From assembly GCF_000455365.1 (NCBI RefSeq), contig NZ_HG315685.1:717794-781793 (forward strand): a stretch of 64,000 nucleotides of DNA. Reading direction: 5' to 3'. Positions 1-61,587 of the stretch are shown one piece after another. The stretch is from Halopiger djelfimassiliensis. GTDB lineage: Archaea > Halobacteriota > Halobacteria > Halobacteriales > Natrialbaceae. The notes under the pieces are model-generated. The model saw nothing but the letters and a program-made list of their open reading frames with translations, had not been told where the DNA came from and did no database searches. A program made the translations under genes and the position numbers. How positions within the stretch are numbered: position 1 is the stretch's first letter; the number at the start of each line of letters is the position of its first letter.

Positions 1-179
1 CACACGTCGCGGAAAATCGCTTCCAGCGAGTCATCGATTGGTTCGAGAATCGCGTGGCGGTACTAAGCGGGATCGAAGATCCCGCGAGGTACGCAAAGCT
101 TCGCTTTGCTTGATTTCGGACACCACACGAAGTGGTAGTTGACGTTGTACACCGTGTGGTCCGACCGCTTCTCACCCAT
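1..179 (-). pseudogene. tnpA: TnpA (Y1 HUH transposase) 5' part, interrupted
   Basis: Reading leftward from the ATG at 179, the frame starts MGEKRSDHTVYNVNYHFVWCPK, cut here as the typical IS200 TnpA N-terminus with its beta strand ahead of the HUH motif. After 22 codons a 51-bp insert (63-113) adds 17 codons that end in TAG. The old frame then resumes as YRHAILEPIDDSLEAIF up to the window edge. Removing the insert restores one continuous reading frame, so the insertion is the inactivating lesion. The HUH residues and catalytic Tyr lie outside the window, so activity before the insertion cannot be judged. Confidence 0.8.
63..113. repeat. 51-bp twin-hairpin element (copy 1)
   Basis: Two perfect short hairpins lie in tandem: 67-85 with stem GCGGGATC/GATCCCGC around GAA, and 93-109 with stem GCAAAGC/GCTTTGC around TTC, separated by 7 bases. 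The unit is exactly 17 codons long and sits between tnpA codons that are contiguous once it is removed. A second unit of the same length and architecture lies at 60802-60852 inside a peptidase gene. The design resembles REP/BIME pairs and in-frame palindromic elements known from Rickettsia. That it is mobile is inferred. Confidence 0.75.
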
Positions 180-232: not shown

Positions 233-388
233 ATGGCGAACCGCTTTGAAATCGACGGCGAAGAAGTCCTCGACGGTGAGGTCAAGCCGTTCGGGAACAG
301 CGCCCACGTCACCGTCCCAAAACGCTGGCGTGGCGCGGACGTGAAAGTCATCCGAACCTCGGAACCCACCGAACAAGACGAAGAATGA
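233..388 (+). CDS. DUF2080 family transposase-associated protein
   Basis: A 51-residue protein, MANRFEIDGEEVLDGEVKPF followed by GNSAHVTVPKRWRGADVKV, with the beta-rich pattern of AbrB/SpoVT-like small proteins. It is the DUF2080 companion commonly found directly upstream of haloarchaeal tnpB. Its stop overlaps the tnpB start (ATGA at 385-388), which indicates translational coupling. A longer frame begins at a GTG at 191, but the TATA-like stretch around 205-225 lies inside that extension, so the ATG at 233 is preferred. Its role is unknown; DNA binding or regulation of the element is plausible but unproven. Confidence 0.8.
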   Translation: MANRFEIDGEEVLDGEVKPFGNSAHVTVPKRWRGADVKVIRTSEPTEQDEE

Positions 389-1662
389 CCGACGCACAGG
401 CTCTCGTCAAGACGCTGGGTTTCCAACTCGACATCCAGAGTGACAACGAGAACCTGCTGTACAACGCCACCCTTGAAGCACGCTCGGTGTACAACGAAAC
501 CATCCGCCTCGCCAAACAAGGCGTGGACTGGGACGCCATCCCCGACCGCGTGGCTGACGACGCCGACCTCGTAAAAAACACGACTCAGCGCGTCGTCGCC
601 AAAGCACTCGGCGCGATGGAGAACTACTACGAGTACGACGACTTCGGCCAACCAAGCCACATCAAGGACGGCGCGTACCCGCTTCGTGCGAACTACGAGG
701 AAGGGTACAACCTGTCGCTCACCGACGACGGCGACGTGGCGTTCCGTATCAGCGCGAAACCGTACAAACACGTCACGGGCGTACTCGACGGCAACGACGC
801 CCACCTCGACATTCTCAAGACTGCCCTCGAAAGTGACGAGTGGAAGATCGGGACGGCAGAAGCCCTGTTCCACGACGGGAACGCCGAGTTGCACGTCAAT
901 GTCACCAACACCGAGCAGACCGTCCGAGACAAGCACGACTCACGAACGGTCATCGGCGTGGACGTGAACGAAGACAACGTAGCCCTGACCGCACTCTCCA
1001 AGGCTGGTGTCGAGGACACGCTGGTCATCGACTTCCCCGAAATCAAGTTCGAGCGCCACCGCTACTTCACGATGCGAAAGCGCGTCCAGAACGCGGGGAA
1101 AGACAGCATCCACGACACGCTCGAAGGGCGTGAGGAACGGTTCGTCCGCGATAGACTCCACAAGGTGTCTCGACACATCGTGGAGTGGAGCCGTCAGTTC
1201 GAGAAACCGTGTATCGTCTTTGAAGACCTCAAAGAGATGCGGGACAGTATCGACTACGGCACCCGGATGAACCGACGCTTGCACCACCTCCCGTTCCACG
1301 CCCTTCAGTTCTATACGTCGTACAAGGCGGCGTTCGAGGGCATCCCAACCGCGTGGATTAACCCCGAGTACACGAGCCAACGGTGTCCGATGTGTGGGCA
1401 TACGGAGCGTGCGAACCGCAACAAAAAGCGGTTCAAGTGTCGGGACTGTGGGCATCAAGACCACTCTGACCGTGGTGCAAGCGTCAATATCGCCGTGAAA
1501 GGCATCGAGAAGCATCAGGACTGGAATGTGCCTGCTCTCAACAGCCTTCCCCAAGTCAGGAAGGTGCGACGGCAGGCATCGGGGGCCGTGGACGCCCCGA
1601 CCGTGACCCACGACACCGTTCGAGGGTATCAGACCAATGGTGTCGCGGGAGTGTCCGACTAA
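385..1662 (+). CDS. tnpB: IS200/IS605 family RNA-guided endonuclease TnpB
   Basis: A 425-residue protein of normal TnpB length. The RuvC-like catalytic residues are present: D193 in GVDVNEDN, E280 in VFEDLKEM, and D362 in SDRGASVNIA. The zinc ribbon is intact with C334/C337 and C352/C355. TnpB is known to be the RNA-guided DNA nuclease of IS605-type elements, using a RNA from the 3' end of its own gene and the element right end; it cuts empty donor sites and so retains the element. It follows the DUF2080 gene with a 4-bp overlap and is divergent from the broken tnpA. Nothing suggests inactivation. The guide would be the flanking spo0M sequence. Confidence 0.93.
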   Translation: MTDAQALVKTLGFQLDIQSDNENLLYNATLEARSVYNETIRLAKQGVDWDAIPDRVADDADLVKNTTQRVVAKALGAMENYYEYDDFGQPSHIKDGAYPLRANYEEGYNLSLTDDGDVAFRISAKPYKHVTGVLDGNDAHLDILKTALESDEWKIGTAEALFHDGNAELHVNVTNTEQTVRDKHDSRTVIGVDVNEDNVALTALSKAGVEDTLVIDFPEIKFERHRYFTMRKRVQNAGKDSIHDTLEGREERFVRDRLHKVSRHIVEWSRQFEKPCIVFEDLKEMRDSIDYGTRMNRRLHHLPFHALQFYTSYKAAFEGIPTAWINPEYTSQRCPMCGHTERANRNKKRFKCRDCGHQDHSDRGASVNIAVKGIEKHQDWNVPALNSLPQVRKVRRQASGAVDAPTVTHDTVRGYQTNGVAGVSD

Positions 1663-1722
1663 TCCACGGGAAGCCTCGGGGTCAATCCCCGAGGCGGTTC
1701 ACTTCGCGCTCGAGACACGATA
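1530..1722 (+). ncRNA. Predicted omega RNA of TnpB copy 1 with guide
   Basis: By family precedent the reRNA/omega RNA covers the last part of tnpB and the right end, then runs about 16-20 nt into flanking DNA as the guide. Visible here are the terminal hairpin at 1673-1695 (stem GCCTCGGGG/CCCCGAGGC, loop TCAAT), the end motif TTCAC at 1698-1702, and a following segment 1703-1722 that is coding sequence of the interrupted spo0M gene. The 5' limit is arbitrary. Confidence 0.5.
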
Positions 1723-59724: not shown

Positions 59725-61587
59725 ATGGGTAGCTACGATATCGAACGCTATCTCAACATTCGAAGCGCCTACGGCGCGTCGTTCGGCCCCGACGGCGAGC
59801 GCCTCTCGTTTCTGATGAACACGACCGGAACGGCACAGGTCTGGACGCTCGCGGGGCCGCGCGAGTGGCCGGAACAGCGGACCTTCTACGACGAGCGGGT
59901 GACCTTCGCCTCGTGGTCGCCGGAACGGCCGGAGCTGATCTTCGGCATGGACGAGGGCGGCAACGAGCGGGCGCAACTCCACCGTCTCGACGCCGAGACC
60001 GGCGTGATCGAGAACCTGACGGCGATGCCCGACGCCAAACACCGCTGGGGCGGCTGGAGCCACGACGGCGACCGGTTCGCGTTCACCTCGAACCGACGCG
60101 ACGAGGCGGTGTTCGACATCTACGTTCAGGGCCGCGAGGAAACCGGCGACGACGCTCGGCTCGTCTACGAGGGCGACGGCTGGCTCACGCTGTCGGGCTG
60201 GAGCCCCGACGACTCCCGGCTGCTGGTCTCGCAGGCCTACTCGAACTTCGATCAGGACCTGTACGTGCTCGACCTCGAGACCGAATCGCTCGAGCACCTC
60301 ACGCCCCACGATGGCGACGTTCGCTACCAAAGCGCAAACTGGGCACCCGACGGCGACGGGATCTATCTCGTCACCGACGAGGGCGAGGCGGACACGCTCT
60401 ATCTCGCCTATCTCGACCTCGAGACGGGCGACCTCGAGCCCGTCGTCGACGGCGAGTGGAACGTCGACGGCATCGCGCTGGACGACGAGACCGGCCGGTT
60501 CGTCTACTCGGAAAACGTCGAGGGGTACACCGAGGTGACCGTCGGGGAGTTCGACGCGGCCGATCCGACCGCGTTCGAGACGTTCCCCGAACCCGACCTG
60601 CCGGGCGGCGTCTCCGGCGGCGTGAGTTTCGGCCCCGACGCCGAGCGGTTCGCGCTGTCGACGACCGGCGACGCGGTGAACACGAACGTCTTCGTCGTCG
60701 ACGTCGAAACCGGCGAGGCCGAACGGTGGACCGACGCGCCGACGGCCGGCATTCCGCCGGAATCGTTCGACGAATCGGAACTGGTCCACGTCGAGAGCTT
60801 CGGCGTTGACGGGCGTAGCCCGTCCGCTCGTGGGACTCCCGAGGAGTCCCACGCTGGCCTTTCGGTGCCCGGCTTCTTCACCCTCCCCGACGATCACGAG
60901 CCCGGAAACACGCCCGTGATCGTCGACATCCACGGCGGCCCCGAGAGCCAGCGCCGCCCGTCGTTCTCGAGCGTCAAGCAGTACTTCCTCGATCGGGGCT
61001 ACGCCTACTTCGAACCGAACGTGCGGGGATCGTCGGGGTACGGGGCCGAATACGCGTCGCTCGACGACGTCGAGAAGCGGATGGACTCGGTCGCCGACGT
61101 CAGGGCTTGCGTCGAGTGGCTGCAGGACCACCCCGCGGTCGACCCCGACCGGATCGCCGCTAAGGGCGGCTCCTACGGCGGGTTCATGGTGCTCGCCGCG
61201 CTGACCGAGTATCCGGACCTCTGGGCGGCCGGGATCGACGTCGTCGGCATCGCCAACTTCGTCACCTTCCTCGAGAACACCGGCGACTGGCGGCGCGAAC
61301 TCCGCGAGGCCGAGTACGGCTCGCTCGCCGAGGACCGCGAGTTCCTCGAGGAGGTTTCGCCGATCAACAACATCGAAAACATCGACGCGCCGCTGTTCGT
61401 TCTCCACGGCGAGAACGACCCCCGCGTGCCGGTCGGCGAGGCCGAGCAGATCGCCGAGAAGGCCGAACGGCAGGGCGTCCCCGTCCGGAAACTGATTTTC
61501 GAGGACGAGGGCCACGGCTTCTCGAAGCTCGAGAATCGCATCGAGGCCTACTCGGCGATCGCCGATTTCCTCGACGAACACGTTTGA
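59725..61587 (+). CDS. S9 family (acylaminoacyl-type) peptidase with internal hairpin insert
   Basis: A 620-residue serine peptidase. Residues 1-350 form a beta-propeller of the TolB type (SWSPERPELIFGMDEGGNERAQ and repeats). The C-terminal hydrolase has S483 in GGSYGGFM, D565 in ENDPRVP and H597 in EGHGFS. Residues 360-376 (GVDGRSPSARGTPEESH) come from a 51-bp twin hairpin (60802-60852) inserted at the domain junction, in frame and without stop, so the enzyme may stay active. Such peptidases trim peptides in the cytosol. Start ATG at 59725. Confidence 0.92.
   Translation: MGSYDIERYLNIRSAYGASFGPDGERLSFLMNTTGTAQVWTLAGPREWPEQRTFYDERVTFASWSPERPELIFGMDEGGNERAQLHRLDAETGVIENLTAMPDAKHRWGGWSHDGDRFAFTSNRRDEAVFDIYVQGREETGDDARLVYEGDGWLTLSGWSPDDSRLLVSQAYSNFDQDLYVLDLETESLEHLTPHDGDVRYQSANWAPDGDGIYLVTDEGEADTLYLAYLDLETGDLEPVVDGEWNVDGIALDDETGRFVYSENVEGYTEVTVGEFDAADPTAFETFPEPDLPGGVSGGVSFGPDAERFALSTTGDAVNTNVFVVDVETGEAERWTDAPTAGIPPESFDESELVHVESFGVDGRSPSARGTPEESHAGLSVPGFFTLPDDHEPGNTPVIVDIHGGPESQRRPSFSSVKQYFLDRGYAYFEPNVRGSSGYGAEYASLDDVEKRMDSVADVRACVEWLQDHPAVDPDRIAAKGGSYGGFMVLAALTEYPDLWAAGIDVVGIANFVTFLENTGDWRRELREAEYGSLAEDREFLEEVSPINNIENIDAPLFVLHGENDPRVPVGEAEQIAEKAERQGVPVRKLIFEDEGHGFSKLENRIEAYSAIADFLDEHV
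60802..60852 (+). repeat. 51-bp twin-hairpin element (copy 2), in frame in a peptidase gene
   Basis: Two perfect hairpins: 60808-60824 (GACGGGC/GCCCGTC, loop GTA) and 60830-60852 (GTGGGACTCC with GGAGTCCCAC, loop CGA), separated by 5 bases. Length of 17 codons, a short stem then a longer one, three-base loops, and a shared CTCG-Y-GGGA around the second stem match copy 1 at 63-113. Left and right of it the peptidase frame reads as family sequence (HVESF and GLSVPGFFTLPDD), so it is an insertion. Exact ends are uncertain by 1-2 codons. Confidence 0.75.

Follow-up and report, generated by a model that had tools for sequence, protein, structure and literature searches.

In haloarchaeal genes, in-frame twin-hairpin inserts point to very small mobile elements that form a family not described before and, in addition, make proteins longer. 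We favor, with a probability of roughly 0.8, the existence of mobile palindromic elements of very small size that form one family throughout the haloarchaeal class, are gained as units, obey a frame rule, and reuse one site in tnpA; a step performed by a Y1 transposase is not covered by this estimate. As far as sequence comparison can establish them, the family itself, the gain of DNA, the frame rule, and the reuse of one site in divergent tnpA genes are supported directly. The family is present in most sampled haloarchaea and offers many presence/absence pairs. Rickettsia provides the best-documented cases of palindromic DNA inserted in frame within protein genes, and no archaeal report was found in the literature searched. 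The elements open to testing the movement of a very short DNA hairpin, the tolerance of proteins for inserted loops, and the question of whether stem pairing is kept by DNA structure, peptide composition, or both.

The insert in tnpA

The window (the whole stretch of 64,000 nucleotides of Halopiger djelfimassiliensis DNA that was analyzed) begins with an interrupted transposase gene. The insertion point is marked ^ here and below.

1–179, minus strand: 5' part of an IS200/IS605-type tnpA, interrupted by the element; the 3' part is lost in an N assembly gap before the window
63–113 (64–114 equally possible), minus strand: 51-bp twin-hairpin element inserted in tnpA; empty homologs read CCGAA^GTACCG, and sister copies occupy the same tnpA codon at other loci
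93–109, minus strand: hairpin 1 (tnpA orientation), GCAAAGC GAA GCTTTGC, perfect, 7-bp stem, 3-nt loop
86–92, minus strand: 7-nt spacer, GTACCTC on the minus strand, GTACCTCG in the wider alignment; sister copies have it (mismatch-tolerant pattern)
67–85, minus strand: hairpin 2, GCGGGATC TTC GATCCCGC, perfect, 8-bp stem, 3-nt loop

Two perfect hairpins with stems of 8 and 7 bp and three-base loops had been proposed in the initial annotation, together with a 51-bp in-frame interruption of tnpA between otherwise adjacent codons. The hairpins were found at 67–85 and 93–109, and the empty homologs agree with the interruption; the tnpA orientation was corrected to the minus strand. Removal of the 51 bp fuses TGTCCGAA with GTACCGCC, the insert splitting WCPK from YR. 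The insert-free protein (HTVYNVNYHFVWCPKYRHAILEPIDDSLEAIFRDVC) matched 24 plasmid records; the best match was gapless over all 36 residues, and identities reached 94%. At the DNA level, empty homologs read CCGAAGTACCG or close variants, and the window reads CCGAA-ATCAAG...GCTTA-GTACCG. Because the insert-free protein aligns to its best match without gaps and homologous DNA lacks the segment, tnpA in the window has gained 51 bp, with a border uncertain by 1 nt.

Across copies, the stem of hairpin 2 is constant and its loop reads TTC, TCC, GAA, TTT, GGA, or TCT. In sister copies, both arms of hairpin 1 have changed, giving GCAAATC/GATTTGC (AAAGC/GCTTT to AAATC/GATTT). The terminal TAG that had been ascribed to the element does end the window copy, but it is not a feature of the element, as sister copies read CAG and stay open. 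A second, identical copy of the tnpA type lies at G000:C2:25055, within a shortened derivative of the window's IS. N runs adjoin both IS copies of this genome (at window position 1 and at G000:C2:25055), so that part of tnpA is absent from the assembly.

The insert in the S9 peptidase gene

A search for perfect stems of 7 bp or more, with 3-nt loops and no more than 12 nt between the hairpins, returned exactly two twin hairpins in the window, at 67–109 and 60808–60853. The second lies in a peptidase gene.

59725–61584, plus strand: S9 family peptidase gene with the second element (Pfam PF00326, 1e-48)
60802–60855, plus strand: main-family twin hairpin in the S9 peptidase, net +51 bp, GVDGRSPSARGTPEESHA replacing D (R1 87.1 bits, R2 65.2 bits; insert-free ortholog L079)
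60808–60824, plus strand: hairpin 1 of the peptidase unit, GACGGGC GTA GCCCGTC (hairpin search)
60829–60853, plus strand: hairpin 2 of the peptidase unit, 11-bp stem, loop CGA (hairpin search)

As compared with L079 (ESFD-GLEIPGF), the peptidase unit puts 54 nt in place of one Asp codon. This ortholog is free of the insert seen in the window and carries one elsewhere in the S9 gene; L025 has both. The S9 insert is common to many genera at one position. In a predicted model of the window's peptidase, with a moderate mean pLDDT of 71.5, the insert lies between two strands and residues 362–373 have pLDDT values below 50, as expected for a flexible loop. A unit of the same size as that in tnpA had been noted at 60802. 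The second insert and its net gain of 51 bp stand, but the equal size is partly a coincidence; 45 bp is the most frequent gain, and the second hairpin of the peptidase copy is longer.

Under R2, the second of the two covariance models described below, the tnpA unit scores only 9.4 bits, with hairpin 2 alone covered, and the main-family model does not recover the tnpA branch. The units in tnpA and in the peptidase gene represent two branches.

Distribution and covariation of the family

The core of the peptidase unit, sought in 125 Natrialbaceae genomes, yielded relatives with altered arms and no control matches. A covariance model made from ten relatives of the peptidase unit (R1) matches 119 of the 125 genomes. 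R2 matches about 69 of the 81 genomes sampled within the order; elsewhere in the phylum it gives one weak match in about 312 genomes. No more than 14 candidates were scored for each genome in this survey, so that copy numbers are lower bounds. A strict pattern recovered few copies in the genome of the window, since stems vary, and covariance models were required. The four standout matches in this genome are the S9 peptidase, PurD, NrdJ, and a SufB/D protein, those in NrdJ and SufB/D being weaker (E-values of 1e-5 to 4e-5). Named carriers include Natrinema, Halorubrum, Haloarcula vallismortis, Halobaculum, Halobellus, and Haloplanus. Among 72,556 plasmids, the main-family consensus matched haloarchaeal records only, with some matches inside annotated merA, aconitase, CobN, and other genes. 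Viral contigs gave no match to the patterns of either branch, and phage records none to the main-family consensus. The initial annotation had suggested a haloarchaeal twin-palindrome family inserting in coding regions, to be refuted if all tnpA homologs carried the segment or if haloarchaea held no further copies. The suggestion was borne out and withstood both: tnpA homologs without the segment exist, and copies are found in most haloarchaeal genomes.

The common form adds 45 bp and consists of two hairpins separated by a TGCTCG-like spacer; the first has a 7-bp stem with a 3-nt loop and adjoins a GTC end, and the second adjoins a CGCT end. The spacer TGCTCG, the tail CGCTG, and the unit length are common to unrelated loci and genera. 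The tnpA form is a 51-bp branch with the spacer GTACCTCG and the tail CGCT(C/T)A. In 58 aligned copies, 99.0% of the stem cells were paired, as compared with 82.4% after shuffling and 33–49% with the partners slid. Cells changed on both sides numbered 135, against 38.6 expected from the shuffles (0/500 shuffles). The alignment was fitted to the structure of the model; this biases it toward pairing but does not account for how large the excess of double changes is. In genomes of a single genus, perhaps Halorubrum, intergenic clusters (L137–L150) contain several hairpins chained by alternating CTGTC/TGCC linkers in longer shared repeats.

Gains in host genes and the frame rule

Copies lie in frame in about 20 unrelated genes, including those of core enzymes (PurD, SufB/D, ribonucleotide reductase, LeuC, an aCPSF1-type ribonuclease, and ATP synthase subunit E). 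The host proteins were named via Pfam and NCBIfam.

S9 peptidase, GARS (PurD), Cys/Met metabolism PLP enzyme (MetY-like), aminotransferase I/II, CobB/CbiA
Thioredoxin-reductase-like protein (TrxR), CNNM-CBS, Lhr helicase, SufB/D, quinolinate/nicotinate phosphoribosyltransferase
Aldehyde ferredoxin oxidoreductase (AOR), aldehyde dehydrogenase, NrdJ, MerA, ATP synthase E
aCPSF1-type ribonuclease, CobN, formate dehydrogenase, LeuC, histidine kinases

Insert-free orthologs give empty sites in at least eight genes, and the clean gains are 45, 48, or 51 bp.

MetY: GLEG^GYEAG, +45 bp
TrxR: VVD^GGESI, +45 bp
CNNM-CBS: IED^GDVVG, +45 bp
Lhr: DD^GLEN, +45 bp
CobB: G-D-V/L-C, +45 bp
AOR: VG^GLEW, +45 bp
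PncB: EI^DGEP, +48 bp
PurD: +45 bp, by eye, from an insert-bearing copy and empty relatives

In four histidine kinase genes (L154, L123, L132, and L059), tandem 45-bp units occur at the NAVEHGG motif of the ATPase domain (SVEHGSTSSR...) and resemble a protein-coding minisatellite.

Copies scored as coding made up 87 of the 139 sampled. Their length was a multiple of three in 85 of 87 cases, as compared with 34 of 52 for the rest (p = 2e-7); the latter class includes some coding copies, and the contrast is understated for this reason. All six frames of the consensus are open, as checked by hand. The coding copies use two of the six in 64 of 65 cases, namely phase 0 in the forward orientation (23/23) and phase 1 in the reverse orientation (41/42). 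The second base of the hairpin-1 arm differs with orientation, being A in 21 of 23 forward copies and T or C in all 42 reverse copies (p = 4e-15). The p-values for frame, orientation, and length assume independent copies; some copies are orthologous, which makes these values too small. Because gene copies are kept as multiples of three and in two of the six frames, the added peptide is most likely translated within the host protein, as 15–18 mostly hydrophilic residues. The frame rule is most simply read as the result of selection for an acceptable peptide, the two arms changing in concert.

A copy in a PDH E1-alpha-like gene (identified by eye) contains TAG in two genomes (L034:1501-1554 and L036:1501-1554). 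These copies have T at the second arm base in the forward orientation and are probably the two arm-base exceptions.

The tnpA branch across genomes

A search of 392 genomes of the order for the second half of the 51-bp unit located it at 27 places in 24 genomes, with zero matches in the controls. One tnpA codon accounted for 23 of the 27 places, in three tnpA lineages (the window type, an ISHhu3-like type, and an ISH34-like type), and the remaining four have different first hairpins. Protein identity between the three lineages is 39–45%, and the inserts are 88–100% identical; outside the insert, the flanking DNA is mostly 32–50% identical between lineages. The 51 bp are identical in G646 (window type) and G597 (ISHhu3 type). 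Insert-free forms of these lineages occur in plasmids. About half of the copies are open (SSKAKLCVPRGI.DPAQ), and the others carry TAG at the end, like the window copy, or in loop 1. The loops of the hairpins vary freely.

One 51-bp insert at one codon of divergent tnpA lineages is the best evidence for mobility, and the same comparison shows that the branch has spread across tnpA lineages and genera. Since its inserts are nearly identical while the transposases carrying them share about 40% identity, this branch would rank among the shortest site-specific mobile elements. The joining of the two branches rests on their shared architecture and on one intergenic composite array, L273, in which main-family hairpins are strung with a tnpA-type second hairpin. 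L273 is the main link because R2 sees only hairpin 2 of the tnpA unit.

Similar twin hairpins occupy the loops of IS ends (L260 and L270). In L294, the hairpin 1 loop of a tnpA copy contains a nested twin hairpin that belongs to a third type, with the spacer TGATGAC and the tail GAACCA. A further twin-hairpin insert precedes the HUH motif (EILS^LHISPDHVHLF) in some tnpA genes; it is open in L292 and contains TGA in L263 and L266. The dN/dS of stop-bearing tnpA genes was tried as a read-through test and proved uninformative, the inserts being younger than their hosts and some pairs being spoilt by frameshifts or a second insert.

Mechanism and alternative explanations

Under the favored reading, copies would insert as units, and those in genes would survive if their length is a multiple of three and they are read in one of two frames. 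The tnpA branch would be site-specific at CC(G/A)AA^GTA(C/T)CG (WCPK^YR) in distantly related IS200/IS605 tnpA genes and would spread horizontally. Movement as folded single-stranded hairpin DNA is inferred. The insertion targets include hairpin loops of IS ends and of another element. Because insertions fall in IS200/IS605 genes and in hairpin loops, a Y1 (HUH) transposase would be the natural candidate by analogy with REP/RAYT (PMC3733652). Its moving the single-stranded hairpin in trans, binding and cutting included, is an inference to which we give somewhat less than even odds. Y1/RAYT mobilization had been suggested at the outset and remains unproven, as the presence of Y1_Tnp genes does not follow element richness: they occur in 12 of the 16 genomes rich in the element and in 9 of the 17 that are negative for it (p = 0.28), and none was detectable in four element-rich genomes (G175, G206, G304, and G226). 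No transposition event was observed, and one genome per species was sampled. No consistent target-site duplication could be told apart from the conserved GTC/GAC ends. The GTC and CGCT ends are conserved, but no guide or cleavage pair like those of IS200/IS605 ends could be identified. We advance only tentatively the picture of a minimal mobile element, in which a 45–51-bp hairpin pair contains every signal needed for its recognition, inserts at a specific site of transposase genes in different genera, elsewhere extends core proteins in a fixed frame, and is moved by an enzyme other than a resident Y1.

The tnpA insert could instead have spread by homologous recombination (gene conversion), with the genic copies being old and vertical and nothing transposing today. 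That the S9 insert occupies one position in many genera means that some copies are old, and a short block around the tnpA site (TGGTGTCC(G/A)AAG, TA(C/T)CG) is kept between the lineages. However, flanks of about 32–50% identity beside inserts of up to 100% leave only about 16 bp of homology, and the main-family copies in about 20 unrelated genes have no flank homology. Gene conversion could help the tnpA branch; as an account of the whole we consider it unlikely. Intrastrand template switching perfects quasi-palindromes, and hairpins made in place by such inverted duplication with a 3-nt loop would need no element to move. Arm sequences that differ freely between copies and change in concert would suit this, as would the empty PurD sites of relatives, which already read GACAGCGAGGCC, like the end of the element. 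Template switching may maintain the stems, but it leaves the shared unit unexplained, given one TGCTCG spacer, one CGCTG tail, and one unit length across unrelated loci and genera, and near-identical tnpA inserts in divergent hosts. We regard it as very unlikely to be the source of the inserts.

Removal or skipping of the element at the RNA level, by a minimal intron or ribosomal bypass, would allow the tnpA stops to be tolerated. Several TAG-containing tnpA copies keep an intact downstream frame, and in TrxR and CBS the GAC triplets at the two junctions match. Most genic copies, however, lack a stop and stand in frame in only two frames, as expected if they are translated; the TAG-bearing tnpA inserts are identical in diverged hosts and too young to show tolerance, and no bulge-helix-bulge motif was recognized by eye. 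The genic copies can be explained without an intron or bypass, and we rate such models as highly improbable. Many single hairpins occur in GC-rich haloarchaeal DNA, and chance palindromes in GC-rich coding DNA, or assembly artifacts, might be invoked. Yet 200 Markov resamplings of the window's dinucleotide content gave a mean of 0.01 twin hairpins per window and never the observed two, reversed-pattern controls were zero in the multi-genome pattern searches, and like structures occur in complete named plasmids. Chance or artifact can be dismissed for practical purposes.

Comparison with known systems

The closest known kind is that of the palindromic elements of Rickettsia (RPE; Ogata 2000, 2002, via PMC10969869). 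They are multicopy palindromes of more than one family, lie in frame in unrelated metabolic genes, and are predicted to add peptide to the host protein (PMC10969869). The haloarchaeal units are likewise palindromic and in frame in unrelated protein genes. However, RPE are about 150 bp long and bacterial, whereas the gains reported here are 45–54 bp and occur in Halobacteria; the haloarchaeal units are also two separate hairpins with 3-nt loops, found in either orientation with one fixed frame for each, and their family has a site-specific tnpA branch. Because size, structure, and host differ, the family is not classed as RPE.

REP/BIME sequences with RAYT Y1 transposases (PMC3733652) have paired hairpins, a conserved short linker, tandem arrays, and links to IS200/IS605. 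The haloarchaeal units share these features and also have intergenic copies. REP lie mostly outside genes and bear a GTAG (or CGTC) tag (PMC3733652), whereas haloarchaeal copies are common in genes, and their spacer is TGCTCG or GTACCTCG, without a GTAG/CGTC foot tag; some main-family copies do have CGTC, but within the hairpin-1 arms rather than as a tag of its own. As to an associated Y1 transposase, haloarchaeal copies are located in tnpA genes and IS ends, but Y1_Tnp genes did not follow the elements in the genomes compared. Archaeal MITEs are similarly short non-autonomous repeats, but no terminal inverted repeat of a known IS was recognized around the 45-bp unit, which consists only of two hairpins and short linkers. 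No prior description of palindromic inserts in haloarchaea or archaea was found, most subscription papers and all preprints being outside the scope of the search, and none was found in the literature on IS605 and archaeal palindromes. RepRanger (PMC12306157) makes no mention of haloarchaea.

Twin hairpins near tnpB genes and IS ends

On the strand opposite tnpA, the IS in the window has further parts.

233–388, plus strand: small gene matching annotated DUF2080 family transposase-associated proteins (ORF; annotation of homologous loci)
385–1662, plus strand: tnpB of the IS carrying the tnpA unit (ORF; annotation of homologous loci)
1673–1695, plus strand: right-end hairpin of the IS (GCCTCGGGG..CCCCGAGGC), without a twin hairpin here; a similar loop in L260 carries one

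A search of the IS-associated loci against Rfam returned no known RNA family. The conserved-flank loci L111 and L125 were considered as lying in RNase P RNA; this assignment was dropped. Both lie after tnpB, and they may be part of its guide RNA region. At L111, L125, L161, and L066–L070, twin hairpins lie downstream of tnpB, or in an IS200/IS605-type right-end hairpin or solo ends, and are possibly within the TnpB guide RNA region.
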